Assembly: GCF_000151665.1 (NCBI RefSeq)
Contig: NW_013171828.1
Location: 98,817-162,816, forward strand
Reading direction: 5' to 3'
DNA length: 64,000 nt
Origin: Blastocystis hominis
Taxonomy: Eukaryota > Sar > Bigyra > Opalinata > Blastocystidae
The position numbers and the translations under genes were made by a program. Shown here one piece after another: positions 1,907 through 59,039 of this stretch. The notes under the pieces were generated by a model. It saw only the letters and a program-made list of their open reading frames with translations. It was not told where the DNA came from and searched no databases. Position 1 is the first letter of the stretch; every line of letters starts with the position of its first letter.

Positions 1907-3517
1907 TTACTCTTCCTCCATCCCATCGCCCACCGTAATATCCGGAATGAAGCAATTAAACCCGTCCTGAGCTGTCGACACCACCAAATCCGGAATCTGG
2001 TTATGGAAGTGCAATTCCTTAATCGCCGTTTGTCCCTACTTCGCATCTCTCCCCCTCCCGTACCGCATGAACGAACAGCAACTGCGACGGAACGCCCGGG
2101 ATCTGATCCGCCTCGTCCGCCTCCAGCGAGAGATCCCACAACGTGAGCTGGTCGTCCGAAGACACGCCGAGCACCGACGAATCGTGCGGCGACCACTCCA
2201 CAGACGTGATCGGCGCCTGCAGATAGTCGAAGCTGCCCACGAAGCCTCCCCTATTTCTCAGCTCTTTGTCTCTTCCACGACTTCAGATTGCGAATATCCC
2301 ACACGCGGAACGAGCAGTCGTCCGATCCCGTGACCATCAGATACCCCACCTGCCTATCGCTCAGCCCCACGCTGCGTTCTCACTTGTTCCAGTTCAGCAC
2401 GTTCACATCGCTGTCGTGCGCCTGCACCGTCAGCATGCTCCGCCGCGAGGGATTGCGCGTGTCCCAGATCCGCACCGTGCGATCCACCGAGCACGACGCG
2501 AACACCGTGCTCTCCGAAGGACTCCACTGAAGATCCTCCACCGAGTCCGCGTGGTCCTGGAAGGGCGTCGCGTCGGTCGTCCAGCCGCCTTCGAGCGGCG
2601 AGGTGATGTGGATCAGTCCGGCGCAATCGCCCGTGGCGAGCAGTCCCTTCTCGCAGAGCGACCAGTCCAGCGCGTAGCCCTCCGCGCGGTGGCCTTTGAA
2701 CTGATAGACAGGGTCGGTGGGCAGCGAGGGCAGCGAGAGAGGCGTCGAGGCGGTGGAGCCCGAGGCAGGAGTCGACGCCTTTTCGACTTGGGAGAGCTGC
2801 GAAGCGATGTTGTAGATGCTGACGACGCCCGTTTCGGACCAAACGCCCACGACTTGCGATCGGTTCGGAAGACACTGAGGAGGAGAGGGAGGAGAGGGAG
2901 ACATACGCGGATGCGGTTCACGGCGCCGCGGTGAGGGATGGTGGACACGGAGATGACGGGGTCCGATTCATCGTCCGGCTCCTCGGTCGGATCATCGTCG
3001 TACTTGGTCTCGCAGAGACTCGAGATCTTGGACACCACGATCTGGTTGTCCGAACCGCTCTCCGCCTGGGTGCCAGAGACCAGATACAGCGTGTGCGGGT
3101 ACTATTGTGAAGAGAAACATGAGGGAGTACGCGACGACGAATAGCACCGAGATTATCGTGAATAACGTCGAAGCTCAAGCACGGCCATTCCACATTGAGG
3201 CGGTGATACATTCTATACGCACTGTTATCGTAATCCATCTTTTCGCCCTGGTCTATCTTGTCCTTACCAATACGGAAGACCTAAAAGTGAGTTCTGGCAA
3301 GAAATCGACTCACTCCATGCACTTCTCTCTCTTCATCGATTCCTTCCAGCTCTCTTTTCTCAAGTTCTTCTTCTTCCTTCGGGTCGACAATATCTTCTTC
3401 TTCAAATGTGTCAACATAGGGGTCTTCATATAGAAAGTTTTCCTGGTCCTCTGCCTGGTCCTTTCCCTGTGCGTTCGTTCTCTTCTGCGATGAATTGCCG
3501 TTAGTTCCTCGTTTCAT
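1907..3517 (-). CDS. GRWD1: Glutamate-rich WD-repeat ribosome biogenesis protein (GRWD1/Rrb1)
   Basis: Histone-binding-like WD40 chaperone of the Rrb1/GRWD1 family, which binds ribosomal protein uL3 and acts in 60S assembly in the nucleus. Start ATG 3517 is followed by an acidic N-terminus (DTFEEEDIVDPKEEEELEKR), then the family block LNVEWPCLSFD, LYLVSGTQAE, an acidic loop, NRIR, and WD repeats ending in WDTRNPS, WDIRNLKS, SVEWSPHD and WDLSLEADE. The C-terminus AIKELHFHNQIPDLVVSTA matches the family end. Six introns of 28-33 nt (for example 30 nt after VLNWNK, 28 nt after LLFVHA) restore one frame of 476 codons plus TAA. The internal G+C is high. The exons place it beside the divergent ELOF1 gene, about 105 bp apart. 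Confidence 0.93.
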
Positions 3518-9419: not shown

Positions 9420-12400
9420 TTAGGATATACCAATGAATCGCTTATACTCTGTTATTGCAGTCTGTGTTACCACTTCTATAAAATTAGTTTCTGTTGTTAC
9501 TTCAGCACTATCTACTATTTCTGATCCTAGTTCTGACTGCATTCTTTTCATTGTGTTAACTATCTCTCCACAACTTACAGGCATGAACATAATTCTTATT
9601 TTTGGAATTGAACGAATTTCCTCATATATTGTATTCCATTTGTCTTTTATTTGTTCAACCTCATCTGTTAAAGCGACTCCACAATCAGTAAGATCAAGGT
9701 GATTAGGATAATCACCAACTATTAATATCAAATGATAGTATTCTAAATACTCCGATAGTTTGATCTGTTTTAAGGCTCTTATCAATCCTCCTTGAATATC
9801 TTCACACCAACAAAATTTCCTTGCTCCAGATGATCCTCCATCAGCATCAAATGTAGATAACTTTGATTTCAATTTTTCAAAATCATTAGTGATATATTCT
9901 TCCTTTTCGCCCGTGTAAACATCTCGATAATCTTTGTATTGAACCACTTGCCCAACAATTCCACCATCTATAATATTATATTCATTCTCTACTTGCTTTA
10001 TTTTATCCAATATTAGAACGATATTGTCTCTTGTAGCATTAATATATTCTTCCATCGACCCTGTTGTATCCATCACAATACTAATGCAGAAATTAACCTG
10101 ATTTAATTTGAACTGTTGTATTTCATAAGGTTCTTGCCGCTTCTCCATGTTCTTCCGATCAGGCAACATTACTCCATCCATCTTGATTCCAGTTGTCAGG
10201 CTAGTATTTTTAGCTCGTTCTTCTTCGAATTCTTCCGTGTTACACAACCAAACTGCAGCGTTGCTTATCCATCTCGCTGTTCCTTCTTCTGTGAACTCTA
10301 AAAATAGCTTGGATGCAGCTGTATCAATAATCATTCTGCCTTCTTTACTTCCTTCTTGCTTCTCTCTCACCAAAATTGTGGCATTTCCTTCACTTTCTCT
10401 AGCAAATATGCGGAAACCATTGTCTACAAAACTCTTCTCATTTAACGTACAAAGTGTTCTTCCCTCAAAAATACTTACTATTCCCAAATCCAAACGAGTT
10501 ATATTTTCAAAATTAGTTGCTTTGCCTCCAATAGTGATAAATTGGCCTGATTTCGGTGTTTCACTGATCACTCTTTCCATCACATTACCTCCCTGGATGT
10601 TTTTGTCTTTGTCTCCCACTGCTTCAAATCCATAGAATTTCTCAAAATACAGATCAGCTTCATAAGTGAATGGATAGTTTTCTAAAAACCAGAATACTCC
10701 ACCTCCTCTCTTGTTGAATTCATAAACACAACTCACAAAGGCATCTGCATATTGATCCACATCATCATCACTTTTTTTTGCCATGATTCCATCTCCAGGA
10801 GAGCAAGTAATGTATGTCATTCGATATTTTCCACTCATCAACTCTCTAATTGCAGTTTTGTAATCAAAGGCATAATGAATTTCGAATCCTTTCCCAATAG
10901 GTATTCCATTTACTACTTTATCTCCAAGCTTTATTGCAGGTGAGAATCTTTTCCCATTTATAACTTTCCCATTGATTAATACATCCTCAGTAATATACTC
11001 ATCAATCACCAAACCATTTTCATCCTTTATTCCTCGACACAAATAAAGAATAATGAACAGGATCGAATAATCCTTAAATGCTCCATCGATTCCTAAATCA
11101 TATATGCTATTAGTAATATCACCAATCTTTTTCATTGCATGAATACCATCTGTTTTGTCAACGAATCTGACATTGCTTAAAGTCATTTCATGCATACTTA
11201 GAATATCACAAATACGACTTAACAAATCTTTATGTGATCTTTTAAATGTTTTACTCAATATCATTTCGTCGATTTTCTTCGCTGGCACTGCGTTCTGATT
11301 TCCATTTATTGAGGCAATCGTTAGATTCATCATTGTTTCAGACAATTGGTTTGGATTTGAATTCCAAATCATTGTTGGGAACAAATCTTCAAATCCACAC
11401 AAATACAAGCCAAGTCCTATTCCAAGATAAGTCATTTCGATTCCACTCACAATTGATATTATTTCTTCTCTGGATTCATTACATAGAACACCATTTGTTA
11501 GAACCATCATAATAGATGGGTATGACCGAGCATTACACGTACAACAAGCATAGCGAATACAATCAGGTAAACAAGTGTTCTGACAGGGAGATAACAAGTA
11601 TTCATATAAAGCAGCAACAATATTACTTTCCCACAAATCCATCGATAATATACCTGTTGCAATACGAATGATTTGAGAAGAAGCCACCCACAAATCAATA
11701 CAAGGCAGTTGCATATTACTCAGATTCCGAAGGATTGTAAAGATTGTATATAATGAATGAACTCGGTTCGTTTCGCTGAAGGCAATTGAAGAACAATCAA
11801 TCACAATGCTCGCATTGTAACTTCGTATCTTTTCGCCTCCAAGCTTCTTGAAGAACTTGCCATCTCCAGTTTTGCTAGCCACATACTTGATGTAGTTTGC
11901 CATATGAATCGAAGTTCCTGAAGTGGATGCAACAAAGGCTGCCGATTTATTAGGAATGAACAGAGACGTGTTCATTGCATCAAATAGATTCTCACCTTGG
12001 ATGAACTTGCTAATCGCGTTTATAACAGTACTATTAGGGTTTTTCTTTGGATTCGTCAATAATTGGTCTTCTGATAGATCCACCATTCTGACGGGCTTTA
12101 TACTTGATAATGTGTTGATTGCAACCAATGACTGGTTAACTTCAAATGCCATTCGTAGATCATCTGTGAATACATCTGCCCATTTTGTTGATTGACAAGC
12201 ATCTGCCACAGCATTCATTTTTATTTTTCCTGAATCAAATAATATATCCTCAATGATTTTTATACCATTATTATAAATATCATTGATCCTTTCTATTATT
12301 ATTATCATGTTCTTATTGAAATTGGCTCTCAATGATCTTTCTAGTAAAGATTGATTTAATGCACTAAGGGTTTCATTATTATTTCCTTTCACACATAGCA

Positions 12401-15400
12401 AAAACAACTTTCTATACCGCTTAAATACTGTCCTCACTTCATCATTTTGCGACATTAACTGTTCACTAAATCCATCACTTACAATCACGACTGGATCCTT
12501 TTCATTGAAATGGCCTGAAACGGTCAATAAGTCCAATGGAGTCGAAGGCATTTTCACCACTTCTTCAATATCAAACAAAAACGATATAATTTCCCGAATA
12601 GATCGATTATCCATAGAAACAAACGCACCTTTGTATCTTCCACAAAAAACATACAGATTGAATGAAATGCCAAGTTCCTTCATGACAATTACTAAAATGC
12701 ATGAAATAATAGTTCGCATTCGAAGCTTATTCTTTCTCAGACTACAATTTGTATCGATAATAATATTAATTGTTGAATGAGGTTTGCGATTCATACACTT
12801 CTGTTGTTTCAGTAATGCTATTACACCAGTAGATTGACTTACAACAGCCTCAATAACTGAAACATCAATCAAATTTCTAATTGGCTTCATTTCCTCATGT
12901 TTCAGGGTTTCATTGTTACTAAACGGAATAACATACTTAAGAATTGTTCGACGTTGGTATATAGATTCAAATAAATCATCCATTTTCAATGATTTCATTG
13001 TTTCTAGATATTCTTTATAATTTGAGGATTTATATTCCCGTATCTCCGTTTTATTCATATTGTTTTGTGGTTTGTTTTTCTCAGATATAGCAGAACTGTC
13101 TTCAAGGTTTTCCATTTGTTTTATCAGTTGGACCTGCCTATGTATATCATCAATAACGACCCTATCTAGTTTATGATATCGAGCTGGTCTTTTCAAGGCC
13201 TGACTGTTATTCTTGATTTCGTCGTCTTTCATTTCTTCATACAGTTCTACAGTTTTTGAGTTACCCTTATATCGTTTCGATTGCTTTTGCTTTGATTGTT
13301 GCTTTTTCTTATTTAAAGAACTCCACGATAAAATAGAATGATGACTGATAACCATATTCATAATGCGTTCAGCTTCTATTTTTATTGAAGGGAGAATTAT
13401 ACTTATTCGACATCCATTTAAAATTGATATCATCATTTGTTTTTCTTTCTCGTTTGCATATAGGAGAGCAATGGGTAAAGAAAGTAATGAATCATAGAAA
13501 GTACTAAAAATGCTTGACTGGAGATTTTGGATAACTGATTGAGCATTGAAATGACCTTTATGATCAATTTGAATTTGGTTTATTCGTATTTCTTCGTTTT
13601 TCAAAACCTTTATCTCGTTCTCATTCCATATGAAATGAGTTCCTAATGGATAACTAGACTTTTTCATTTCAGAACACGAAACATCAACACATGGCATTGA
13701 TGAGATAGTTATCCATTTACTATTGGTTGCAGTATATTGCTTACATTTACCATTTCTATATACTACAATATTAATTGGTAATATTGTTGGATAAAGAATA
13801 TTATTACTATTGGAGTTGGCAGCAGTATGTAGATAACATGGAGCAGATGTTACAATACGATTTGGCAATGACTTCCTCTCATAACACAAATAAAATTCTT
13901 CAGTTGCTAGTTTCTCATTATCTGACATTCGATATACTGTAGCAATTAAACTAACTCTCTTCTGTCCAATATCGTTATCCTTCATGACAAATACGAATCT
14001 GTTAGAACTCTCACTGATATCACAATCATTACTTCTTACTACCAATTTTATTTCACTGCTTGTCGAATAGTATGGTATAGATATTTCATTTCCATTTTCT
14101 TCGACGTAACTAACTGGTAGATAGTAAGTTTTATTTTCAGGAAGACAAATTGATGCTTTACTGTTTTCATATATGGTAATAATTGAATCTGATAATGTAA
14201 CCTCACTTTGTATTGTTGAATCCATTTCCGATTTACTAGGGAAAAACATAAATCGAATTGATTCCATTTCCTTTTGCTCTTTTTCATATTCTTTTCTTTT
14301 TTCTTGAATATCATCTCTCAAATAATCCAGTTCCTTTTCATATTCATTACATTTTTCCACTAGATTCTTAAAGTTGCTCACATCATCTCTTGATTCAACA
14401 GCTACACTCTCAACAGAGCCAAAATCGTTTCCAATGTAAAGATAATCATCAAGTGACCAAGAAGATTTTGTTAGTTCCAAGCTTATTTGATTCTGTGGTA
14501 ATACATCATTGAAAGAATTGATTTCATTACAATCAACCTTGAAATTACAGTTACAAATAATGGTATTCTTAAATAAACTACAATTGTATGGTTTGTTATT
14601 ATTGAAGTAAAAGCTGGAAGAATGATACTTTCCAGAAATTGAATAGTGATTTTTATTATATGCATATAACTTTTCTTGAGATAATAAATTGGCGTATTTT
14701 AGGTTGAAATAATCTCTGATAAATACCATGCATTTTAGAAGGCAAAGCAAAAAATATATACGAGCATTTGATTCTGCACTATTATCGTAACTACTGTTAA
14801 CCAATTTACCCTGTTCATTTGTGTAATATACTAGTGATATTTCACGCTTTTTTAATTCAGTTTTTTTAGCATTTATCTTAATACTAACATTCCATTTGAA
14901 TGGCGCCAATGGAAGCACTAGCAAATAACCATCAGGAATATGAATACCAAAACTGGTTATTTTATCACCCTTTATCAAAATAGTACTTGATTGTAAATAT
15001 TCACTCAATCCATCTGGAGCAGATATTATAACTGAAAGTTGTTGATTACATGTAAGCACTTTGTGCTTTTTTGGGACAAAAATCATTTGAAAATCAAAAG
15101 GGTGATATTCATAACAAGGTTTATACTTTAAATCATACTTTTCCTGAGGAGCTTGTACTAGAAACTTAGAATAATCATCTTCACTTAGGTTGTTCACAGC
15201 ATGCATATAGCCAAGCATCTTGATGGTATTCCCATTACGCCTTTCGTATTCCTTCTTGTTACCATTCATCTTGGTTTTTTCACTTGCTAGCCTTGTGTAT
15301 TTATCAATTAATTGTTGTCTCATCTGTTTGGCCTCTGTCTGCTTCTCTTCATATATTTTATCCATAGCACTTTTCTTTGTTTCCAAATCTTCCAATTCCT

Positions 15401-18400
15401 GTTTCATTTTGGCCAACTCTTTCTTGCTATTTTCTTCAGCAGTGTCAATAACTCTGGATACAAGTTCATCAATATTTGTTACTTCCATAATAATTTGAGT
15501 TAATGCTTTGTTTAGAAATGGCTTTTCTAATATATCCAATACCACTTTTCCTTCCATCGTTCGTTTGCGTGGACATATAATAGCCAGTTTGTCTTCAATA
15601 GTCAATGGACAGTTATCTCCCCACATTAATTCCAGTAAAGGATAATCTGGATCGTAAGGAATAAGTAGAGACCGTTCCATTTTTAACGTCTCGCTCGGGA
15701 TTGTAGTTCCTGGTTCAATAAGAGTAGGAAGATCACATTTCCACCAAACATCAACCTGAGATACTTCCAGATAATCGTATCCTTTTAATTCGGATTCAAT
15801 ACAGTTATCAACAGCATCCAATAATAATGGGACTTTTAATTTAATTTCTATTGTTGAATAAGCGGAATAACATTTGTTCACCAATTCTTCTTTCAAACTC
15901 GAATATGCTTCAGAACGGTCTTTAGCTTTATCTTTTACCTTATTCCAGTATGATTTATACCAATCTTTCTCAAACAGCGCTTTAATAGCTGCTTCAAAAT
16001 CTCCTTGAGTCACTTCAACAGGAGTAATGAATGGATATTCGCTGTAATCCTCTAATAATCTTTCCCAATCCAAGTTTTCCATTTCCTTCTTCAGCAGCAC
16101 ATTCAGCATTTTCAATAAATAAGGAAGGAGAATTGATGAACTACTGAATTCTTTTAGAATATCAGCCACATTCAATTCCAATCGATTCAATACATCTGCA
16201 TATTCACTCAATATAGTTGGATAATTTTCGAATGATTTCAGTTTATAAATCAAATGAGATGTTTTTACAATGTATTCATTTGCTCTTGATTTGTATTCAT
16301 ACTTTGTATACTTTGACTCATTTACATTGAAATTCATTGATTTGTATGTTTTACTATCAATCATTCCATCTTCAAATGCCTGTTTCAAGTAATTTCTCAA
16401 TTCTTCATCCTTACCACAATAATATTCTGCTTCAGAGTATTTGAACTTCATTCCTTGTTCATCATCATCCTCTATCCCTCCATAATTTATCACATTCATT
16501 TTTGCAGAACTTTCAATTGATTCAAGAGTGTATATTATATCTTTAGCATTATCAGATTCCTTTATCTCAGAGGGGAAACTCTCAATTGATATCTTTACTG
16601 ACTTGATTTCATTGCGAAGACTTATACAATCAACAGCTTTAGCCTTCTCTCTTAAATGTCTTTCTCTTTTTTTCACATCCAAAAAGATATCACGAATATT
16701 AATTATTTCTTTTAGCATATCTTCTGTCAAGTCACTCCGACTACTCGTATTTAACAATGAAAATACTTCAAGCACCAAGTCATTCAATACAGTTTCTCCC
16801 ATAAACCGATATAATTCATCTCTTCTATCACAAATAAACAGCAATTCCAAATATATTTTTTGCTTTTTTGAAGGAATATCGAATAGTTGTTTAAGAGTGA
16901 GTTCTTGGTTAAACATCCAATCTGACATTCTGTATTTGCCTTTCATTTTCGGATCAATCGATGAAATCAAATACCAACGACGAAGAACACCTGCATTTTC
17001 TCCTCTTTGTTTCGCTATTATGCAATTCTGAAGATCTTTCATATCCAGTACTTTGATTGCACAATCCATTACATAGTAGATAAAATGGTATTCAAAATAC
17101 TTTACGCAGCTTTGTAGTAGCTCGATAGTGTCTTCAATCACAAATGCACTCTTTGTACTTGTGCAAATCTTTTCCATTATAGCAATCATTCGAGTCATTC
17201 TATCAGTTTCTGACAAACTCTTCACATTGTCCAAAAATTCAAACAATTCAAAATCAATAGATTTGGGGATATAGATATTCGACACCACTCTGTTACTCTT
17301 CGGATAATATCCAAATTCATACAAGAATGCATCTCTTTCTTTACTGTTTATCACTCGAATACATCGTCGGAATGTTTTCGATTCTTTGCTTCCAAAGTTA
17401 CAAGGTTTTTGTGTTGATACAGAGGTTTGGCAGATTTCTTGAACATTTGCTTGAGTCGATATTGGATCACAATACACAATCACACAACGACTCAAGAATG
17501 GTCCAGTGAAGTGTTTCAATGTATTGTCCGATATTGTAAAGAAGATTCGGAATGCTTCGTCAATTTTCCTTTCGCCTTCTTTCGGTTGCATTGAATACGT
17601 TATTTCTTCATTTCCTGCTAATACCTTCAGTGTTGGATTTTCTTCACACAGAGAATTCAGCGATTCCATCACATCATTGTTTGCCAAATGAATATCTTCG
17701 ATCACAATCCAATCTCCACTCTCCATTGCTTTCAACAGCGGACCTTCTCGGAATTTGATACATTCATTCCCATTTTCATCAATTCCAAGAGTACTTCGAC
17801 CGATGAACACATCTGGAGAACTTTCATGATTCAAAAACACCGAAGTGCATCGTTTATCCCACATCAATGCCAGATTCGAAATACAATACGATTTGCCAGA
17901 GGGAGAAGAACCATAAACCAAAATGGCTCGTTTGGATTGTAAAGCAAGACTCAACTTGAATATCGTCACTTTCTCTGTTGAAGTGAAACAATACTCTTTG
18001 AAAGATCCTGAATACATTTGTCGAGTTTCAATGTCCCAATAACCACGAACAACGCATTGGTCGTCTTGTTTGATAATATCAACTCTTAATCTATCTTCCA
18101 GCTTCAATATCTTCTCGATTTCTTTTCTCTCCGATTCTTCATAACGGCAAGCAAACACCAACCATAAAGCAGTTTCCAATGATAGGTTATTTCCATTATT
18201 CACAATCTGATCCACTTTCAATACATCTCGAAGCGAGAATGGAATCGATGTCTTTTGATAGGAGTTGTAGGAATATTCAAACAAATCAAGAATCTGATTC
18301 TCTGTTGATTCTTCTTCCGATTCCATTACATTACTCAAGATTTGACGAGCTGTGACGAACAATTCATTCAATGTGAATTTCAAATCACGATGATAAATAC

Positions 18401-21400
18401 AATACTTGTAGAATTGACGAGGCAATGTGCTGCGATTTGCTGACATGGATGCTGGATTCATACAGCAAATGATCAGCATGTTCGATGGAATATTGATCAA
18501 ATCGCCTCCTGGAACTTGGAATGGATCGTGATTCACATAACAACGAATCAGAGTGAGTAATACTTCAAGCACATCTGATGGAGCCAAATTCACTTCATCT
18601 AATAACAATGCTATTCGTTGATCTGAGTGATCTCCTCTTTTCAATAGTTCTGTAATACTTCCATCTCTGAATTGTAATGATCCATTCACAATCGTATAAC
18701 ATCCAAACAAACTATCAATCGTTATGGTATTCGAAAAATTGATTCGCTTATAAACAAGACTCTCCTTTACGAAATAATTCTCAGCGGAAACAGTTTTGCC
18801 TACTCCAGGATCTCCTTCTAGAATCAGAGGAAGATGACTTCGATTTGCCAATACGATGGATGCCAATAGCTGAATTGTGGTCTTTGTAGGAAGTAATGGA
18901 TGCTTGGATTGAAGACTGGATTCCATATCATCAATTACATCATTTGTAAATAGGAATGATAGAGTTTGCTTCAAATCTTCTATCATTGCATCATCCTTGT
19001 TGCTTGATTGAAGGAATTCACTTACTTCCTCCAAATCCTCATTCATCATTCCTATTTGAATCAGATTCTCTCGAGATGCCAAATCAGATTGAAGGAATCG
19101 AAAATAGAATGGAATCACTTTCTCAGCATTCACAAATTCATTCCTCAACATATCTGATTTTCGTAGAATGTGCAAAGGATAGTCATCTCGATTTTCAAAC
19201 TCATATTTCGCCCTTTCTAATCCAGAATAGGGTTGACAAAACACTTGAATGAATTGGTCTTTCTTTGCAACTCTTCCATAATCTGGATCTTCGCATGTTA
19301 CAATCGCATTCACAGATTTACCAAGAATCTCTGTTTGAATTTGGGAATAATCTTCAAATAGACTAAACTCTTGCGAATCTAAACTAAACAACAATGAATA
19401 TAATCGAGGAAGCAATCGATCATTCAATAGATTGATATTGTTCAACACGATCGAATTGTTACTCATTATCGAACGGAGAATCGGACCAGGACGCATCATG
19501 AGCAATGATTCATTATCTACCATGCCATACAATAACCTCTTCAGGTATTCTTGATATGTTTCCATTGGAGTTCCATCAACATTTTGGATCGATGTTTGTC
19601 TCAGAATGTATTGAATATCTTCTTTACGACAAACAGAAATCTCACCAAATGTGTGAGACATTTCCATTGAACGAGACATTTCCATATGAGCAGCACTGGG
19701 AAACAGCAAATGAGTGATTTCAGAAGCAATATCTGAATCACCAACCAATAACACAGGAAGGTGAGTTTGCTTGAAATTGGAAATAGAAAGAGTAAATAAT
19801 GCAGTTAATACAGAAGAATCCAAATCCTTGAGTTTTGAATATTCGATTGGCACTGTTGTTTCGAGAGGACCACGTTGAAGCAATGAACTCGATTCATTCG
19901 CTGGGAGTATTATTGCTGTTACTGTTGGAGTTGACAAAACCACACTTGCCATTTCCAATTCTTGTTTCATTTCTGCGTCAGCTGTCTTTTTCCATTCCTC
20001 TATCACTCTCTCAAGTAATTCTTTGCGATCCATTCGATCGGCAAACAATGCTGCTACAATCCAAATTGGATGAGAAGTATTGAAACAAATCTTATCCAGA
20101 GTGAATACTTCATTCAATGGAATCTCATTACTATCAATATGATCACATAATCGTTTGCAGATTTCACTATTCATCAATTCTTTCGCTTCATCACTCTGGA
20201 TTGGACTCATTTCACAAATATCGAAATAAGCAGGAAGAGAAGGCAACGAATTCACTCGACGTGTTGTGAATACGAACAAAGCTCGGAATGAAGGATGAAT
20301 TGAATGATTGAGAGAAGCTGGATAAGTGAACTCATCAGTGAAAGGATCACAAACAGTATCAAGCATTTCCAGTAATTCTGCTGACATGTTTTCAGCATTT
20401 TCGAATATCACTAATCCTCCACTTTCTACAGCTTGGAGCAATCTTCCAGCTCGGAAATCGCCATTCATATCCATACTTCCCATCAAAGTGGAAAACTCGG
20501 TTTCTCCAGATACACTGAACACTTGATAGTTTCTGATATAGAGCTTATTGATGATTTCGCGAATTGCATAGGACTTTCCACTGCCTCTAGGTCCACACAA
20601 TGCCACAGCCTTGTTCCTACAAATACAATAGAACAATCTTGAAGCTTCAGTCCAATGGCTTCGAAGGGATTGCAGTTCAGGAATTGGTGGTTGTCTAGCG
20701 AGCATTTCAATCAGATATTCATCCAATTTGTATTCACACACTTCTCTTGCAAAACAGGCCATTCGATGGAGTTCTTTCTGCTGAAACCAGTCGATTGTTT
20801 GAGAATAATCATGAATCAAATCACCAATATCATCTCTTGTAAACTTGCCCAGTTTGGGAGAGTTTTCAAATCGCTTTGCATCTTCGTGACTCACAAATAC
20901 TTCCAAAAATCGATTTCTCAAGGCAGGAGAAAATGCCAGCAAACCTTTCTCAGACGTTGTTGCGATTACACGGAATTCGGGACTCATTTCGAATTCGGGT
21001 CTTTCTCGACGTTCATCAAATCGAACTACATGATGATGGCCATCTGCAGGTGATAATTCCAACACAGAATTCAATCGCTCGATCACATTCGATTTCATCA
21101 AATGCATCGATTGAAGAACACAAATACCTCCATTTTCAATCGCTTTAAGCAATGGAGAAGGACAGAAACGAGGAACTGGTTTGCCCTCAGTATCTTTTTC
21201 GAGTGAATAGCTTCCAATCACACTTTCTGTTGAAGAAGTCGAACTGCAATGAATCACTTCACAGGATGTTCCTTCACTCTGCATTATCTCCATTATTGCT
21301 CGACAATACTTTCGAGATACATATTCCGTTTCTCCAATCAATAGAACATGACATCCAGATTCCAGTCCTAGACGAACTCGATCATACACATCCTTCCAGC

Positions 21401-24400
21401 ATTCCTTGTCTAATGCAGCTTCGCTGAAAGTAATATCCGCTTTGAATACTGGATTTGTTTTCAAATCTTCATTATATGCGATTTGTAAAGCCCGATCCAA
21501 TGCATTACTTTCACCGATTTTCTCTTTATCCATCAGTGTTTCCATCATCCATTTTGCACGACTACAATCTCGAAGTGTGTAATCCTTCCCTTTATCAATC
21601 TCTTTTCCAGACACATTCTTTCGATTATCAGCTCGATCATGAATCTCACACACTCTTCTTCCGATTTTTGTGTCTTTTCCAAACATCGCCGTTATGATAT
21701 CCAATCTTTCCTCTTTACCAATCATTGGGAAGTATTTCGGTCTCGTTGAATCGTGAGTGATAAAGCGGAAACAATCGCGAATTGCAGAAGACAGATTGTT
21801 TCGCTTGTATGAACTTCCAGCAGGATTCTGAGTGGCAATAATGCGGAAATCTCGATGCATTACACGTTCTTCACTTCCATCCTTGCCTTCATGAAGAATC
21901 TTCTTGCCAAACAAATACGATAACACACTCTGAACCACAGAAGGAGGAGCCAGAGACATTTCATCCATCAATAGCAGTTTGCCATGGATGAATGCATCCG
22001 TGAAAGCTCCGTCCTGGAATTTGATCTTTTCTGTATCATCGTTCGTAATCACCATATCTCCAAGCAATTCCTCAGTTGTGGACGAAGGACTGAAGTTGTA
22101 TCTCACAAAGGGAACGAGAGAACGTCGACAGTATTGCTCCACTGTGAATGTTTTGCCTGACGAAGTCACTCCCTCAATCACCACTGGAATGTTGTATTGA
22201 ATCACATCTTCCACGATTTGGTTTCGAATTTTGGTTTGATTTGTTTCTCTGATAAAGGGAGGATCTTCTTTTATTGTTTTCACATATCGATAGGCTTTCG
22301 ATTCGATATACTTCCAATCCTCTCTGTCAGAGCGTATTGCCATGATTAATTGAACGTATTCCTCTGTGGAATGGAAAATGAGCACATTGGATCTGCATAA
22401 TACAGTGATAATATTATCCTCATCAAGAGGAGACAAAATGCCAATCGTAGCATTCTTCACTCCAGAAATGCAGTGGAAATAGATTGTTTCAGGAATGATA
22501 TTATGAGTTTGAGCTTCATTATGATTGATAAGTGGAAGAATAAATGTTGTTTCTTCTTTCTGCAAGTGAGGTCTTCCACTGAAACTAAGCGTATCTCCCA
22601 CATGAACAAAATCACATCCATCAGTCAAAGCAGATTGAAGAGAATAAAAACTCTTGGCAATAGGTTGGTCATAATTCACTTTCAAGGAATCGAAAATCTC
22701 AGAAACACATTGATTTGTTCCATGTTCATATATCAAAATCGATTCATCATTTCCATAACTTCGCTGGTTATTCTCTACCATTTCAAAGTCGTGTCCTTCA
22801 AAATCAATCGGCTCTATTTCTTATAATGGTAATCGAAAAATACCAATTGATACGAATCTGTTCCTTTTATATTCTGGTTCTGTTGATTGTTCCTCAGTTT
22901 CCATCACATTTCTATTGTTTACAATTATGTCAAATTTAGCAATTCCTTGGTTCTTTGCCACTCGACATTTGTTAGAAACAGTATCTACATGCTTTTCGTT
23001 TTCTTTTTTGTCTAATAATAATGATACAAACAATATATCATACTTAATACAATCCTGAACTCTATGATTGGAATGAGGTTATTCTTGCCTAAATATCCCA
23101 CCATTTCATTTATTCCTTTTAAGGAAACAGTTTTGACTATTCATTAATATCAATAACTATTAATACATGGAAAACAAATACTGGTAAATGCTATGGATGA
23201 CCGATCTTTTCCATACTTGATTTCGATTTCCACATTATTCACTTGGTCTATGAGTTACACATAATAAAAGATATTACCCGATACAATCACATTCTTTATG
23301 GATTGGCAACGTGGATCCGATAGAATTGTTTTGAATTGTGTTATATTATAGCGCGGCATGTACCCTACAGAAAAGTAATGAAAACTCCAATACAAGTTCC
23401 TCGATATGTCGTACTAGGAATCGAATTACTTGTATATATAAACTCTTTAGAAAAAGGATTTGTGGCTTCAATAGATTTGAACTCGAGAAATTTAACATCC
23501 ATTAAACTATTCTACAAATAAGTTAAATATGTCTAATGAACAGGGATAATAAACACTGAAACACTTGACTCAGTGGTTTGAGCCACAATTTCTGGAGTTG
23601 TCATTTTGCCATCTTGATTCAACATTATCCATTTCCCTTTTTTTGATGGCAACTTCATTGTTTTCTATTCGTTCATATACAAAAACAACAGAAACATCAA
23701 TGAAATTGCTGATTAATTCTGTTCGGACTTTTACTGAAACGGAGTCAATTCTTTTGGATGATCGGTTATTCGTATTACAGAAGCATTGAATAACCTGTAA
23801 TTCAATAGTTTTAGAAATAGGGTCAGAAGCTGTGACTATTCTTTTTGGTTGCTCGGTAGGTTTGGGTGTTTCTAAAGAATCGGCTTTGGGTTGTTTTGGT
23901 GGTTCTGTTTGTTTGGGTTTGTTAATTGGAGGTCTTGCAAGACTACCTACGGTTTTCCATGTTACTAAGTTTTATCTAACTTAATTATTCACACTCTCCA
24001 ATTCTATTGTATCAGCAACATTTAAAGATGATATCGTTGTATCCATGGTTACTTGTTTCTTGTCCTTAGTATTTGTAATAATCAGATTTCTCTCAATAAC
24101 GTGATTCCATTTTTTCTTCTCGTGTTTCTACATTATTAATAATCCACGAAAAATACAATCCAATATTCTGACAGATAGTCTCTGACCGTTTTCGACTCAT
24201 CCAGTTCATACTTCTCTATGATACTCTTTCTTTTATCATTCAACACTACCCATTTTTGTTTAGTGTTTGAACTACTCTTAACTGCAATATAATTCAAATC
24301 AATCAAATTGATTACATATCAGGTTATCTTCATTCACAACTCCCTGAGACCACACAGATTCGTCCAAATTCAATGTATCTCCATTCTCTTTGCAGAGCAA

Positions 24401-25508
24401 CACGTCGTCTCTGTTGTATCCAAACAGCTCGATTATTTCTGATCCTCTCACATCTAGAAGAAACTCCATAGAGCAAGGGGAGTTAGAGGAAGGTTTGGCA
24501 AAGTTGTCAGTAATACTCAGCATAATCGTTGGATTATCTGAGTGCATATACACTATTGCTGGATAATAACCTATATTGCCTACTTGTTACATCTATGGAT
24601 GTTGTAATTTCACCCTCAAGAACAAAAGAGCTTCCTTTCTTTGTTACAAATATATTGTCATTTTCGGATCCTATCATTTCAATTATGAGTTGACTCACTG
24701 TAATCGAGTCTGCAAAAGATACGACATCCTCTTCCTCTTCACTGCCTTCACAAAACACTCGAATATGATGTTTCTGATCTTCATTTTCACTATTGAATAG
24801 TTCCAAATCAATCATCGATTACGAATCAATTGCTTCCTTCCCACTCGATTGCCTTGTATCGAAGTTTCCAGTTATTTCATTCTCCTTGTCTTTTAATTCG
24901 GTAGGCAAGTCATTTTCTTCTTCGTCATCACATGTGTTTCCTATATTACTCAATCGAACTACATTTCTATACCGATATGTACATCTAGAATCGATGATTG
25001 GCATTCATTCCCTACAACTTTACTTCTCACCCTTAAACATCTACCTTGTATCTCAATAACCTCAATTTCATCAGAAACTCCTCTAAATGGGATTAAGTCC
25101 TCCAGAGAGATTGTATGACCTCTTGCTTTCAATTTATATTTTTCCCAGTCGCTTTTAGGAATTGAATATGTCTCGCATATAATATTTCGCAGAGTGTAAA
25201 AAGAGAGATTTGTGTTGCACCTCACTTTCTGTCGAATTTTCTTCCATTTGATAGTGAATAAAAATACTCGGCTGATGTAAATAATATCTCCGTTGTTTAT
25301 CTGAGAGTCGAGAGATTTCGACTTGTCCAACATTTTGTCATTATTTACGAAGCTTAGATTCCCAAAATCTTCATGAAAGTCTCTCTAGTATCAAATGCGT
25401 TCACACAATCATTACCACTATACTTGTTTTTAAGACACTCATTGTGTTTCCTGGTTGGATTTTGTACCAAATAGCAGGACTACCATTTGATATTCCTATC
25501 TTCATCAT
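9420..25508 (-). CDS. Giant protein (about 5,218 aa): Ubl-like repeats, six AAA+ modules, coiled coil, VWA domains
   Basis: Dynein/midasin-like AAA+ ATPase fused to VWA domains. Start ATG 25508; 14 introns of 29-34 nt in 22814-25415, then one 13.4-kb exon to TAA. Residues about 1-765: beta-grasp-looking blocks joined by a Pro/Lys linker. AAA1 Walker A GVTSSGKT (about 970), Walker B LLLMDEMSLAPP; AAA2 degenerate (GETEYVSRK, about 1247); AAA3 GPRGSGKS (about 1495); AAA4 degenerate (GDSDIASE, about 1780); AAA5 GDPGVGKT (about 2088), Walker B LLLDEVNLAPSD; AAA6 GSSPSGKS (about 2390). Coiled coil about 3205-3275. VWA-like folds about 4110 (IIIDTNCS), 4430 (IVIDCSS) and 5000 (VMDTTGSM, good MIDAS). 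This resembles midasin, but lacks its long acidic linker and adds the N-terminal region. Role unknown; substrate remodelling by MIDAS capture is inference. Very AT-rich. Confidence 0.85.
22814..25415 (-). other. Cluster of 14 ultra-short introns at the 5' end of the giant gene
   Basis: Introns in order of transcription: 25385-25415, 24941-24972, 24790-24822, 24553-24583, 24282-24315, 24128-24156, 23965-23994, 23665-23695, 23512-23541, 23365-23393, 23248-23277, 23137-23166, 23012-23043 and 22814-22843. All start with GT (mostly GTA) and end with AG. Their sum (432 nt) subtracted from the 2,727 nt upstream of the long frame leaves exactly 765 codons with no internal stop. The unspliced sequence has frameshifts and stops at nearly every junction, so it would be mistaken for a pseudogene. 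Confidence 0.85.
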
Positions 25509-27387: not shown

Positions 27388-30300
27388 TTAGAACGCCTTC
27401 AAGATTGCGGTGCTTCCACAGTTGCACTGGCAGTGCGATCCCGTGTTGATACAGTTGCAGTTCGAGTTCCATCCCTCCGTCACGAACTCCATGTTACACA
27501 GCGCTTCCGCCGTGGTGAAACTCGGGTAGCGCGCCGTGGGCTGGTAGAAGGAGTTCTCCCACTTCGCCTCGAACGTCGTCGCGTCCAACTCCATGTAGTA
27601 CGTCCGGCCGGCCTCCCATCGATTCGGGTTCTCGATCACGCAGGTCTGCTGCTCGCAGAGCGCCGGGAGCGACACGATGGTCAGCGCGCAGTCCGGGCAG
27701 CGGAACCGAACCGCCTTGTTCGCCTTCGCGTCCTGGTTGAACTCCAGCTTCACCGCCGCGTTGATCGGGACGAACTGCGCGCCGTCCGCAGGGAAGAGAC
27801 TCTGGAGAACGAGCGGCACCGCTAGTCATATGAGGGGTCACAACCTGTTCCTACGTTCACTCTGCGCGGCCTGCACGACGAACTCGTAGACGCAGCGATC
27901 CTCGGAGAGCTGGCACTGCACGGCGTTGCCGAAGCGATCCGTGACCGCGTCGGCGGGGAAGAACAGCTGGCAGGTGTGCATGTGAGGCAGCAAGCCCGCG
28001 TAGAGCAGCACGTCCATGTAGCCCTCCTTCGCGTCGCGGCCGCTGCGGACCTCCAGCGGATGGGCGGCGGTGTGGAAGGTGCGGTGCACGGAGGGCTGGC
28101 CGTCCTTCAGACAGGACACCTCGTACTCGAAGGAGTGGTCCAGAAGCGCCTCGCTGGTCGTGGCGAACAGCATCGCGCTCTCCGACATCTTGACGATGGC
28201 CAGGGTGTGCAGCGCCGGACGGATGGAGTCTGTGCTCACGGAGAAGGCGAAGGAAGCGGCGTTGTTGGGGAACGGCGTCTCGCTGAGCAGACCCGTCTCT
28301 TGGCGATAGAAGGAGGCACGACGCACAGCGGCGAGCGACGAGAAGAAGAGGACGCAGGAAGGAGAGGCGGGGAGATCGGCGAACGACACGACCGCGATGT
28401 TCTGCTTGGGAGCGGTCTCGTCGATGGAGAGCGGCGCGTCGAGCGTCAGTCCGCCGCACATCGCGGACGCCGCAGCGGCCTCGCCGAGCATGATGTGGTC
28501 ATCGAAGGTGAGACGGAAGGTAGGCTTGTGAGAGAGCGGGTAGACCGACTCCACCTCCACGACGTGCAGAGGCGACACGGTCGCAGGCGTGGTGAACAGA
28601 TTGATCGCCTGCTTCACCGTGTGCGAGGAGCGAGCCACGCAAGAGACGTGGTAGGCCGTGCTCGGCTGCAGATCGGCCAGAATGATCAGGTGCTCCAGCA
28701 CGGGCTCTCCTGCAGGCTCGTAGCGACCATCGAAAAGTCCGGCTTGAGCCTGCGCCTGGATGGACTCGGGACTCAGCGACGTGGTGTGGGCGAGGCAGTA
28801 GACAGATTCCGGGATGTCGGTCACCACCTTCAGGACCGCCACGGAGGAGGACAGCAGCGAGCTCTCCACGGAGATGTCCATCGAGGCAGCGATCGCGGTC
28901 GTGGTGCTCACCGACGCGGCGAACTTCAGAGCCTTCGCAGGCACCATCACGGTCACATCGTAGAAGGTGTTGGCCTCCAGTCCATAGAACGTGGTCGTGA
29001 TGGCGTCGCCCGTGCACTGCATGGTCTGCGACACCGTCGTGGAGCCGTGGCTCACCGTGGCCGTCGCGCCCACGCAGTAGGAGCTCGACAGCCGCACCAG
29101 CAGCGCCACGCCCTGCACCTCCACCGACATGCTCATCGCCGTGGGGAAGGTGTGCAGCTCCTGGATGGTCACCTCGCCCCACTCGCCCAGCTGCATGCTC
29201 TCCTGCGCGATGGCAGCCACGCGGCACAGCACCGGTCCCGCGTTGAAGTTGGCCACGGAGAAGAGGGCTTCTTCCGCGGTCACGTTGAACGCGATGGGAT
29301 AGACGCTCGGGTCCACGTCGTTCGCAAGACGGCACTCAACGCGATAGCCCTCGATCGGGGACGTCGTGTAGCTCACGGGCTGCTGCCACTCCAAGCGGAG
29401 CACCTGCGCCTCGACCTCTTCCGCCTGCACGGCCACCGCCGCGTACGGCGCGTCGGGCATCTCGCTGTTGCTGGAGAACACGCCGTTCTCGCCGACCTGT
29501 CCGCCCAGCGTGAAGTAGCACAGAATGCTGTAGTCCTCGCCGGCCATCACGGACGTCGAGAACTCCACGGGCTCCGCCGAGGTGAAGTCCGGAGCGCGCT
29601 GCGAAGCGCAGGTGACCTCCAGGTAGCGGACGTAGTCGTGCAGCTCCACAGGCGCCGCGACCGCGACGGTCACATTGACGGTGTTGGTCTGGCTCTTAAC
29701 CTGGCGACGCAGCGAGATGATGGGCGCCGGGAGAGGGATCTGCAGCGTGCCTGTCGTGTCCACGAGGATGTCGTCGAAGCTGTACGGCACCTCCACGTCG
29801 GGCGAGCTCAGTCCGTAAGCGTTCTCCGCACGAAGCAGAAGCGTCACCTGGCCCGCGAAGTAGGGGAACGGGCCGAAGGAGTGGTGCGAAGCGTCCACGT
29901 AGATCTCGGGACGGATTGGGGGCTGGAAAGCGAGGTAGTAGCCAGTGACCGGGTACGCCTCGTCCACGTAGAGCGGAGCCTCGAACGTGACGTAGAAGCT
30001 GCTGGCCTCGGTGCGGAGCGTGATGTTGACGGGCGCGCTGGGCGGGACGGGCGCCGTGTGGAAGGTCACTTCCAGGTCCGACTCGGGGATCGGCGCGCCG
30101 TTGAGAGCCTCCCAGCAGGAATAGAAGATCACCTTGTATTCGCCGTAGCCCAGATACTTCTCCGGATCGTACAGGTCGTTCTCCGAGAGCACGAAGTCCG
30201 CGAACACACCGCCGTTGCGGTAGCGACCCACCATGGCGGTCTTGGTGCGGTTCACCTCCAGCATGTAGACCTCTTCGGGCTTGGTGGTCGACTGGATCGA

Positions 30301-33300
30301 CACCGTGCAGGACGCGTTGGCGTTGCGGATCGCCAGCGAGGAGAACAGAGCCGCCGAAGGCGTGCGAGACACGTGTTTCATGCCTTCGTAGGGCATCGTC
30401 TTGATCGCAGGCGGAATGGGGACGCAGCTGTCCGGAATGACGTAGGGCTCCCACTCGCCGTTGGCCAGGCACTGGCGCGTCCAGGTTCCCGTGTAGTCTG
30501 AAGGGCAGTTGATGGTGGAGTTCGACAGCGCCTCGGTCTCGGGCCAGCCGTCCTCGGCGGGGCAGATGTTCTTGGTGCAGTCCATGATGATCGTCGTATT
30601 CCAGTTGCCGTTCAGATCGCAGTACAGCTTGCGGTTGCCGCTGTAGCCCTCCGGACACTCCGCCTTCGCGTACATTCCCGCCAGCGTCATGTTGAACATG
30701 AAGCCGTCCACGGTGATCGCGGGGCAGATCAGCGCCTCGCAGCCGCTCATATCGTAGTCGGACCACTCGCCCTCGGTCTGGCACACACGCGTGCGGTTGC
30801 CGCGGAAGCCTTCAGGGCAGGGACGCGACTCGGTCTCTCCAGCATCCACGTAGAAGGGCGGAAGATCGGTGGGGCAGTTCAGACGCACGCAGGTGCTGTT
30901 CACCAACACCAGCACTGATTCCTTGGTCGCCTCGTCGTACTGGCAGCGGTAGGTTTCCGATCCCGCCAGGTTCACGTAGCAGTCGAACTCGTGCGTCTCG
31001 CCCACAGGGATGTACACGATCTCGCCCGTTCCCGCGTCGTACTGGCACTCGCTCAGACACGTGGAGTCGTCCACCAGGCCCCAGTGGTTTCCATGGCACT
31101 GGCGGCGCGCCATGCCCGTCGCGTGGCCACTGCAGGCAGCGAGCGCGTACTCGCCCACGCCCGTCTCGGCCCAGTCGCCTTCCTCGGTGCAGCGGCAGAC
31201 CGAGGCGTCCAGATCGTCCCAGTGGCCGGTCGTGGCGTTGCAGGTTCGCGTGATGGTCACTCCGTTCATGCAGTTCATCGGCGTCGACTCGCCTCCAGCA
31301 GGCAGGCGGTTCCAGATGATCTCGTACTCCTCGCGGGACGCGCAGAAGCAGGTGTCCTTGATCGGCTCGCTGAAGTGACCGTCCAGACCGCAGCGGTATT
31401 CAATCACGCCTTCCTCGCAGGGCACCGTGGCCGAGGAACCGAACGCCGCTTCCAGTCCGTTCCAGCTGCACTTGCAGGTGTCCTGCTCGGGCTCTTCCCA
31501 CTCTCCCCACTCCGAGCAGACGCGGCTGCGATAGCCGATATCGCAGAGGATCGAGACGGTCGTGTTCACGTTGGCCTGTCTCCACACGTCCGAGCCCTTG
31601 CAGAAGCAGCGCGTGTTGTCCACCTCTTCCCACTGGCCGTTCAGACTGCAGATACGCGTGGCCGTTCCTTCCGAGCAGGCCACCGAAGCCAGGTTTCCGG
31701 CGGCGGTGGTGGCGAATCGCCCGTCCGTTCCGCACTTGCAGTTCGACAGATCCACCGGGTCGAAGTAGCCCGAGTCCTCGTTACACTTGTACGTTCGCTC
31801 TCCCAGCGAGCAAGGCAGCGCGTAGCTGTCTCCGGGAGTGAGCAGGCGCTCGATTTCGTCCTCCAGCGAGTACACGCAGTTGCAGTTCGACGTGTCCACC
31901 GGACCCCACTCGCCGTTCACGTTGCACACACGATAGCGCTCGCCGCTCATGCAGCCCATCACCACCTTCGTGGGCCGATTGCCCACGGGCACCTTGTACC
32001 AGCTCGGCTCCGACGGGCACCACTTCACCGGGCACTGGCTCTGATCCACCTCGCCCCACTCGCCGTTCGGTCCGCAGAAGCGCGTCTGCGTGTACACCTC
32101 GTCCGGCACGCCGTCCATATCGAAGCACGTCGTGTTCGCATACGTGTTCACCGGCGTGTCCTCGAAGCCGTCCATCGCCTTGCAGCGGCAGTTGCTGTAG
32201 TCGATGTCGCTCCACACGCCAAATTCGCCGCACATGCGCGTCTGGTAGCCGCTCGGGCACGCCTTCATCGCCTCGTTGCCCGTCAGGGTGAGTTGCCAGC
32301 CTTCCTGCGGCGCGCAATCTACACGTCACTCCCCTCGCTCATGCCGACAGCACGAAGACGTATCGATCTCCTCGGTCCACTGGCCGTCCTCGCCGCAGTA
32401 GCGCTGAATAAAGCCGTTCGAGCAGCCCATGCGAGCGTACTCGCCAGCGGGCGTCTCGCTCCACATTCCGTCAGCAGGGCACTCTATCGCTCACACGCCG
32501 CCACGACGCCTACTGCACGCGAAGTCCTGCTCCTCCTCCCAGAATCCGTCGGTTCCGCAGGTTCGTCGCTTGCGGCCCATTCCGCAGACCACTTCGTGCG
32601 TGGTGCCCAGCTCCGCCTGCTCCCAGATGCCTTCCTGCGCGCACGCGCAGTCGTTCACCACGAGCTCCCAGTGTCCCACGCTGTTGCAAACCACCTCCAC
32701 GCGGCCATACGAGCAAACATGGGAGAGATCATCCCCCACCAAACCTTCCTGCCAGCCGGGTTCGGCCAGGCATTCTACGCTTCAGAAGGGCCAGACGACG
32801 CCTACTGCACAGTCCATCGTAGCTGATCGCGCCCCAGACGCCTTCGCTGGAGCACGTGCGACTCACCACAACGCCGTTGTCGCAGCGGTTCTCGGTATTC
32901 GTTTCGTTGTAGGCGGTGGAATGGAAGTAGCCATCGTCCTCACAGTCTATTCGTTCAACACCCTCGGCCAGCACGCACAGCAATTCGAAGAATCCGTTTC
33001 GCCCCAGACACCGCCAAACGAGCATTGACGGTACTCGATGTTTGAACCGCAGAAACGTTCTTGGACAGTATCCTCTAAAGCAGTTTCCCAGCCATCCTGG
33101 GCAGGGCAGTCTGTGTTGGAGACGAAGAGAGAAACGCTTACAACACTCTCCAGCAATGTAAACCCACTTGCCGGAGTAATCGCACATGACTTGGCGTGTA
33201 CCCACTCCGTCGCACATATTGATCGTATCTCCACGAGGGGTATCCGGATACTTATCAAAACCTTTACACTCTATCACGTGAACAAAAGTCGGAGTCTTTA

Positions 33301-49886: not shown

Positions 49887-49959
49887 GCCCACATAGCTCA
49901 GTCGGTAGAGCGTTAGGCTTTTAACTTAACGGTCTGGGGTTCGAGCCCCCATGTGGGCG
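49887..49959 (+). tRNA. tRNA-Lys (anticodon TTT)
   Basis: 73 nt: acceptor GCCCACA pairs with TGTGGGC; D arm GCTC...GAGC; anticodon stem TTAGG/CTTAA with loop CTTTTAA, giving anticodon TTT; T arm with GTTCGAG loop; discriminator G. A-box-like TAGCTCAGTCGGTAG and B-box GGTTCGAGCCCC are intact. No intron. It lies in the promoter gap between the PHD gene (-) and the RBM26-like gene (+). Confidence 0.95.
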
Positions 49960-58500: not shown

Positions 58501-59039
58501 CTCACTGCCCGGCGATGGCCGATTTCCCGCGAACCGCCGCGAACGAGAGTTATTCGTTCGATTGCACGCAGATCTCTGGCTACAAGGGAGTGAGCGAGCG
58601 AACGTGCGTGTTGAACGAGGACAAGGCTACGGCTTCGTGGGCGATTCCGACTTCGTATTGTGTGGAGGATAAGCTGGATCTGTACTTCTTGATCGGAATT
58701 GTTCTGATCATCATCGGTGTTGTTCTGCTGGTTCTCGGCATTCTCTTCATGGTCAAGAGAGACAGAAAGACCCTGCCTAAGAAGCCTGCTTCCAAGACTG
58801 CTCCTCCTTCACCGATTCCGATGGCTCCTTCCCCTGTGCCGGCTATGCCTTCTCCAGTGCCCGCTATGCCTTCCCCTGTACCGGCTGCTCCTTCTCCAGT
58901 GCCGGTCGCTCCTGCACCCGCCCCTGCCCCTGCCCCAGCTCCAGCCCCCGCTCCGGCTCCTGCTCCGGCACCTGCTCCGGCTCCTGCTCCGGCTCCTGCA
59001 CCAGCACCAGCACCAGCTCCTAAGACTGTTACATTGTAA
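52588..59039 (+). CDS. Giant type I membrane protein (2,129 aa): discoidin-like, Ig-like and Cys-rich repeats, PA-rich tail
   Basis: Surface protein. Two 31-nt introns (52625-52655, 52874-52904) restore signal peptide MKVVSVLLLLLAFSFA, giving exactly 2,130 codons with TAA. The ectodomain repeats a unit: a beta-sandwich containing MYVNGQEIYR / VVYLNGVEVYR / ILYIDDEENARYN, then an F5/8-type (discoidin-like) segment (NKWSAELSGAFLQFQW; LEGSNDGENW), then Ig-like He_PIG domains (PALPNGMSINPNSGLIAGTV; LPAGLEFGSNGAIYGTP; LPADLTLDPTTGVISG) alternating with short Cys-rich modules (CPEYYTGYAMARC, CPEGYSGMATREC). One transmembrane helix near residue 1,990 (YFLIGIVLIIIGVVLLVLGI), basic KRDRKTLPKK, then a cytoplasmic Pro/Ala repeat tail (APAPAPAP). 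Extracellular binding is inferred; ligand unknown. Confidence 0.88.
58801..59036 (+). repeat. Pro/Ala-coding low-complexity repeats
   Basis: Two nested arrays within the cytoplasmic tail: (AMPSPVP)-like heptads at about 58815-58910 and CCTGCTCCGGCT-type Pro-Ala codon pairs from about 58911 to 59025. Synonymous third-base variation between units argues for selection on the peptide, not just replication slippage. Confidence 0.8.

Follow-up and report, generated by a model that had tools for sequence, protein, structure and literature searches.

Six AAA modules in one giant chain, followed by a long tail and a C-terminal VWA domain with a metal-ion-dependent adhesion site (MIDAS), are found in midasin; according to excerpts of one study, the Rea1 MIDAS domain binds the ubiquitin-like (Ubl) domains of Rsa4 and Ytm1 via a metal ion that is shared between the proteins (PMC6624252). 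Dynein heavy chains also have six AAA modules in one chain, together with a coiled-coil pair that encloses a domain, and RNF213 has a RING E3 beside its AAA ring. In bacteria, AAA+ proteins of the MoxR type are matched with partner VWA proteins (NorQ-NorD, CbbQ-CbbO, CobS-CobT and the MoxR-vWA ternary systems), and excerpts of PMC7159879 describe the pairing of MoxR-clade AAA+ proteins with vWA co-chaperones as widespread and as including midasin. Here we describe a gene in a 64,000-nucleotide stretch of the Blastocystis hominis genome (contig NW_013171828.1, positions 98,817 to 162,816; hereafter the window) that lies on the reverse strand at positions 9420 to 25508 and shares with midasin the giant chain, the six AAA modules and the long tail, its C-terminal VWA appearing to be of the MIDAS type. 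We consider it probable that this gene belongs to a family whose products are giant AAA+ machines for remodelling, midasin-like in build but not midasin.

The encoded protein departs from each of these systems. Unlike midasin, it has no match to the midasin lid domain (PF17867), carries two VWAs, a putative third and a glutamine amidotransferase (GATase)-like domain rather than a single VWA, includes a Ubl in the same chain, and is encoded by one of 14 copies that exist alongside a separate midasin-like locus. Generic dynein P-loop models of Pfam match it, but no dynein-specific domain was seen, the dynein models among its Pfam matches at E<=1 being only the P-loop ones, AAA_7 and Dynein_heavy D6 (D6 below cut-off). 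Dynein coils sit after AAA4, whereas here the coils follow AAA6 and VWAs occupy the C-terminus. Unlike RNF213, the protein has no RING in its Pfam list at E<=1. The MoxR proteins belong to the same AAA clade, and CbbQ, CobS and NorQ are among its PDB matches (CobS also appears in NCBIfam, far below cut-off); however, those systems are separate small proteins that assemble into rings, whereas here everything lies in one eukaryotic chain. Six-AAA giants are rare; this one is multi-copy and unites Ubl with MIDAS-type domains within a single polypeptide.

Six AAA modules precede a composite tail

The features of the AAA region and the tail are as follows. Residue numbers refer to P0001, the 4,453-residue product of the large open reading frame.

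9420..22781, reverse strand: large open reading frame of 4,453 codons, nearly entirely within the single last exon (22813-9420)
21567..22277, reverse strand: AAA1, with GKT as Walker A and DE as Walker B; limits set by the midasin match
20862..21398, reverse strand: AAA2, both Walker motifs degenerate; approximate limits
20082..20684, reverse strand: AAA3, with GKS as Walker A and a degenerate Walker B; approximate limits
19137..19829, reverse strand: AAA4, both Walker motifs degenerate; approximate limits
18312..18914, reverse strand: AAA5, with GKT as Walker A and DE as Walker B; approximate limits
17382..17999, reverse strand: AAA6, with GKS as Walker A and ED as Walker B; approximate limits
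15264..15518, reverse strand: coil 1 (residues 2422-2506), 85 residues without proline or glycine
14418..15263, reverse strand: variable domain enclosed by the coils, possibly a stalk tip, with low identity among copies
14241..14417, reverse strand: coil 2 (residues 2789-2847), 59 residues without proline or glycine
12237..12770, reverse strand: VWA-a, MIDAS-like DTNCS..T..SDG; strand order in the AlphaFold2 (AF2) model, motif conserved
11349..11828, reverse strand: VWA-b, degenerate MIDAS DCSSI..T..TNG
10242..11090, reverse strand: GATase-like domain (ThuA/IFT52/OST48 type), the usual nucleophile cysteine not seen in the window's copy
9426..10106, reverse strand: VWA-c, MIDAS DTTGSM

Pfam AAA_5 was matched in five stretches of P0001, and six modules are recognised by motif. 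The six modules, with midasin as the nearest solved structure (151 bits in a PDB search), support the dynein/midasin plan put forward in an original prediction that had been made from the letters of the window alone. As that prediction also held, the Walker A motifs of AAA2 and AAA4 are degenerate, in all 11 copies compared; in the same number the Walker motifs are kept, save for small changes in AAA1, AAA2 and AAA4.

Behind the AAA modules, coil 1 has the highest heptad score of 31 windows (0.55, window 2450-2499) and coil 2 the second highest (0.50, window 2800-2849). The domain that they enclose has a mean identity of 29-44% among 11 copies across six windows. No long acidic run of the kind found in the D/E-rich tail of midasin was seen by eye in residues 1800-3349.

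The order behind the coils is VWA-VWA-GATase-like-VWA. VWA-b and VWA-c have the VWA fold, and the GATase-like domain has the flavodoxin-like GATase fold (Class I GATase/ThuA-like). VWA-a is assigned by strand order and motif: it gave no PDB match at E<=10 and no Pfam VWA sequence match, and it does not appear in the list from a fold comparison, which can be filled by other domains. Three VWA-like folds, as had been proposed, thus appear to lie behind the AAA modules, VWA-a being recognised from its motif and topology, but the GATase-like domain had been missed. Set against the midasin consensus DxSxS...T...(S/T)DG, the motifs of VWA-a and VWA-c read DTNCS..T..SDG and DTTGS. The predicted C-terminal DTTGS is found in nine of the 11 copies, including that of the window, with DATGS in one and a gap in the remaining one. 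In the GATase-like domain, no cysteine follows strand GGGVFWFLENYPF, which we take to be the location of the nucleophile, in six of seven sequences aligned and inspected by eye; the seventh, from the metagenomic protein P0038, has one (LFCENEP). The whole C-terminal profile found nothing in the PDB at E<=1, and the best 50 of 525 matches in a viral structure library included many VWFA proteins and none more specific.

A lone frame of 195 residues on another contig (C9:314482-315060, reverse strand; C-numbers denote contigs of the same genome) shares 55% identity with the final 194 residues of the protein, which form VWA-c; it lies on the opposite strand to, and near, the C9 copy of the gene.

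A probably homogenised AAA core in fourteen copies

The genome searched comprises 18.7 Mb in 40 contigs and contains 14 near-full-length copies on 13 contigs, counting that of the window, a family that the earlier single-gene account had overlooked along with its homogenised motor. The other copies are 86-93% identical to that of the window over the AAA core and 46-69% identical over the rest.

17382..22244, reverse strand: homogenised block over the predicted AAA ring, from fourfold-site divergence among 11 copies

Codon analyses used the longest frame of each of 11 of the 14 copies, including the short C23 and C6 copies, and left out C24 and C5 (split frame), C20 (which runs into Ns) and a divergent relative on C13; the ratio of nonsynonymous to synonymous divergence (dN/dS) was computed for three close pairs, and a separate alignment (A2) took in nine of the 14 copies. 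At fourfold sites, divergence was 0.053-0.116 in the AAA block vs 0.091-0.615 in residues 1950-4453, and the AAA block was the less diverged in all 55 pairs. The borders of the low-divergence block fall near residues 180-210 and 1790-1820. Synonymous divergence (pS) was likewise 0.08-0.22 across the AAA modules vs 0.45-0.75 from residue 2100 onward. The tree of the AAA block is star-like, with a mean ingroup distance of 0.105 vs 0.908 to the outgroup, the corresponding values for the C-terminal block being 0.487 and 1.202. Since neutral sites within one gene should diverge evenly, the simplest account is gene conversion confined to the AAA ring, which would leave an engine kept alike by conversion with divergent ends. 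The copies are constrained: dN/dS could be computed for 29 of the 30 blocks, the thirtieth being saturated, and stayed below 1 in each of them, the variable parts included. Every computable block thus points to purifying selection, with no positive selection found on the variable parts in these three pairs.

One alternative reads the copies as a diversified recognition family of the innate-defence or conflict type, with a shared NTPase motor and variable sensing ends. The multiple copies, the homogenised motor and the divergent ends are all what such a family would have, and bacterial MoxR-vWA pairs form conflict systems according to excerpts of PMC7159879. However, the variable blocks evolve with dN/dS below 1 like the rest, and the Pfam scan shows no effector domain. 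We regard this alternative as unlikely, although worth keeping in mind. We know of no role in innate defence or conflict for such a family in Blastocystis.

The copies are also dispersed, two of them (C24, C5) have split frames and two (C23, C6) are short, as might be seen in a selfish element or a decaying repeat family. In 13 copies compared, however, similarity stops downstream at the stop codon, with the exception of two duplicated pairs (C15/C24 and C34/C38); purifying selection and homologues in other genomes that extend over the whole frame (below) also speak against this idea, which we consider very improbable. A mobile element was rejected on the unshared downstream flanks, terminal repeats not having been searched for. 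At the upstream end, C14 and C6 share about 1.5 kb that includes the N-terminal region, and the C6 copy (C6:423093-437678) is without part of the middle. A divergent fifteenth relative at C13:703740-714352, with about 30% (29-33%) identity, is possibly an older single-copy form.

The motif TGTTTGTT occurs 20 times in the window, vs 2-16 times for control words of like composition, the 16 belonging to the overlapping word TTGTTTGT; excerpts of PMC5608401 give one occurrence per 2,792 bp in Blastocystis subtype 7 (ST7). The density of the motif, the intron lengths and the named C-terminal matches (both below) fit an assignment to Blastocystis, probably to ST7. Six of 13 copies checked have the exact motif no more than about 30 nt downstream of their stop codon; the window's copy does not.

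Relationship to the midasin of the organism

Midasin is the best PDB match of the protein, and many named matches among the best 120 of 687 in a profile search are called midasin, so the gene might be the organism's own, fast-evolving midasin (MDN1/Rea1), which acts in 60S ribosome assembly. Several lines of evidence argue against this. PF17867 is absent from P0001 at E<=1 and was reported in none of the 14 copies (a loose first look), but was located elsewhere in the genome, at C13:1314787-1319775 (three matches) and on C18 (one match). The case of an ordinary midasin, which the original prediction had named as its possible undoing, therefore fails, because the lid was not found here while the separate midasin-like locus on C13 carries it. 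In addition, the tail block is unconvincing in the midasin-type protein P0039 (E 0.007) and gave no match at E<=10 in two others (P0040 and P0006), whereas it is clear in the metagenomic proteins P0038 and P0073. Finally, there are 14 copies where midasin is expected as a single gene. An ordinary midasin was thus rejected on the missing lid and on the lack of a convincing tail match in the three midasin-type proteins, and we give very little credence to a fast-evolving one.

A further locus, C18:125723-127585, combines AAA_5 with a weak lid_7 match in a frame of 3,622 residues and is neither the midasin-like locus on C13 nor a member of the giant family.

Gene model and N-terminal domains

9420..25508, reverse strand: whole gene, 5,207 residues with 15 introns or 5,218 residues with 14
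22814..25508, reverse strand: intron-rich 5' part, from a splice search with a random control
25415-25385, 25044-25012 (optional), 24972-24941, 24822-24790 and 24583-24553, reverse strand: GT-AG introns 1-5
24315-24282, 24156-24128, 23994-23965, 23695-23665 and 23541-23512, reverse strand: GT-AG introns 6-10
23393-23365, 23277-23248, 23166-23137, 23043-23012 and 22843-22814, reverse strand: GT-AG introns 11-15
25262..25508, reverse strand: Ubl1, interrupted by intron 25415-25385; from a five-copy profile and from Pfam in the relative P0035
25046..25261, reverse strand: probable second beta-grasp-like domain, aligned in five copies

Starting at ATG 25508, the splice search joined exons and short GT-AG introns into the best-scoring chain, and it predicted 15 introns of 29-34 nt each. 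Excerpts of earlier reports give Blastocystis intron lengths that agree with this range (PMC3129679, PMC5608401) and a mode of 30 nt in ST7 (PMC5608401, PMC4159000, PMC3129679). The optional intron 25044-25012 keeps the reading frame across its 33 nt: when it is removed the product has 5,207 residues, and when it stays in, the search reproduces the 14 introns and 5,218 residues originally given for the gene. When the start was left free, ATG 25004 was favoured by one score unit (81.6 vs 80.6 for 25508).

Given the optional intron and the unfixed start codon, the upstream exons might instead form a gene separate from the large exon, with the giant protein starting near 22781. We judge two genes to be very unlikely. 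When 300 upstream sequences of similar dinucleotide statistics were generated at random by a Markov model, none gave an open path; among 80 real segments taken from the window, 21 did. Since the eight best of the listed real segments with an open path fall inside the giant gene itself, this control speaks to coding character and not to exact splice sites. An open stretch from exon 2 onward (24962-25384) is present upstream of all 14 copies, that of the window included, and at no further location in the genome at E<=0.1. The other 13 copies match it at 21-57% identity (weakest E 0.003, with a TGA inside one), and its presence upstream of every copy suggests that it belongs to the gene. The same splice search places the first intron of the C38 copy at the identical position within Ubl1. 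Moreover, the relatives P0035-P0037 are annotated as single proteins of 5,255-5,773 residues, of which P0035 starts with ubiquitin matches. The fusion of upstream fragments to the 4,453-codon frame by mini-introns, as first proposed, is thus supported by the 14-15 introns and by the N-terminal exon at all 14 copies.

All predicted introns lie within the first 2.7 kb of the gene, the remaining 13.4 kb forming one exon, and the median exon of ST7 is 150 bp in excerpts of PMC3129679. Such a 5' bias would be expected from replacement by a spliced cDNA copy.

The N-terminus appears to carry one well-supported Ubl domain and probably a second beta-grasp-like domain. A Ubl1 profile built from five copies matches Ubls in the PDB, with the ubiquilin-3 Ubl as best match (E=0.001), and Pfam ubiquitin is above cut-off at the start of the full-length relative P0035; the Ubl1 of the window alone is sub-threshold in Pfam, so that support lies at the level of the family. 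The first two domains of P0035 align to linear polyubiquitin; the second beta-grasp-like domain had no match by itself. Further Ubl repeats gave no ubiquitin match for three candidates in the window, one in C38 and one in P0035, and one piece of C34 matched Rad60-SLD at 0.022 and, in the PDB, a collagen adhesin (E 0.07) and a small ubiquitin protein (E 0.82). The N-terminal alignment (A4) took in five of the 14 copies. Of the series of Ubl-like repeats once envisaged in front of the AAA modules, one Ubl and probably a second domain therefore stand, and those beyond are not supported.

Relatives in other genomes

Homologues in other genomes (P0003, P0004) extend over the entire 4,453-residue frame at 41% identity. 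P0035 of Blastocystis sp. Blastoise, an annotated protein of 5,255 residues, has the complete order of the giant protein: Ubl (Pfam), AAA and the whole tail block (E 5e-246). The four named matches among the 27 of the C-terminal profile search (24 of which entered alignment A3) are from Blastocystis, and the best label encountered on annotated Blastocystis relatives was 'hypothetical protein'.

Two metagenomic proteins, P0038 (5,860 residues) and P0073 (5,973 residues), have the ring region plus most of the tail block. The tail block matches them at E 1e-42 and E 8e-22, respectively (hmmsearch with filters off; both were missed under default filters), with 23-26% identity over the tail, and PF17867 is absent from the precomputed Pfam list of both. 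P0038 begins directly at the ring region. Given that P0038 and P0073 match the tail and the three midasin-type proteins do not, the ring-plus-tail plan appears to extend beyond Blastocystis. A Ubl front was observed in Blastocystis proteins alone, P0038 and P0073 not having been scanned for Ubl. The original prediction knew of no described family with the full order; the order is not unique, as P0035 has all of it and the two metagenomic proteins have the ring region and most of the tail, and among the matches listed we found no description of the giant family in the open-access literature. Excerpts of a published table of Blastocystis single-nucleotide polymorphisms name a 'Midasin-like protein', which may or may not belong to the giant family.

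A possible mode of action

By analogy with the systems introduced above, the six AAA modules of one chain would form a ring. Hydrolysis would be expected at AAA1 and AAA5, the sole modules in which Walker A and B are both intact, and AAA3 and AAA6 may only bind ATP. After the ring, a coiled-coil pair around a variable domain would lead to the three VWAs and the GATase-like domain, and a MIDAS-bearing VWA could dock on the ring and, sharing a metal ion with its ligand, hold that ligand against the pull of the ring, by analogy with midasin. The front Ubl might either latch that MIDAS in cis, a docking within the chain that we infer by analogy, or tether the machine to a Ubl-binding partner. As the motor appears to be kept alike by gene conversion while the front and middle diverge, it is most likely that the copies share a motor and differ in the targets on which it acts. 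Motor-limited gene conversion would then be a natural experiment that separates the common part of the machine from the part that sets its targets.

Several points weigh against a remodelling family of this kind. The family is known here from sequence and predicted models, and the AF2 models are moderate, with a mean predicted local distance difference test (pLDDT) score of 61.0 and 69.7. The MIDAS of VWA-b is degenerate, that of VWA-a is one position off consensus, and VWA-c is absent from the open frame of one of the 11 copies compared. The copies at C24:773997-789664 and C5:24587-39750 have split frames, and the frame of that at C23:18838-33837 is shorter, a stop falling within its tail match. 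Because the variable parts are without positive selection, diversified recognition is not demonstrated.

A more far-reaching version of the remodelling-family proposal is speculative, and we would not expect it to hold in full: 14 versions of one engine, with gene conversion confined to the motor, would pick their targets through divergent fronts and stalk-like tips, the MIDAS-Ubl bond would serve as an internal latch, and the family would be a fourth six-AAA class. Occurrence of the same ring and tail in other eukaryotes would give it that rank, the three other classes being dynein, midasin and RNF213.

Neighbouring genes in the window

Two further large frames lie in the window. The first, at 52896-59039 (forward strand), encodes 2,047 residues, matches Ig-like He_PIG in six stretches as well as F5/8 type C, and is likely a surface or secreted protein. 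The second, at 27838-32268 (reverse strand), encodes 1,476 residues in which hormone-receptor (HRM) matches occur beside one to fn3, which is odd in a protist. Ordinary neighbours are the purine enzyme FGAR-AT (42071-44944, reverse strand), PCNA (62233-62892, reverse strand), a MATE transporter (59066-60748, reverse strand) and a tRNA-Lys (49887-49959, forward strand).

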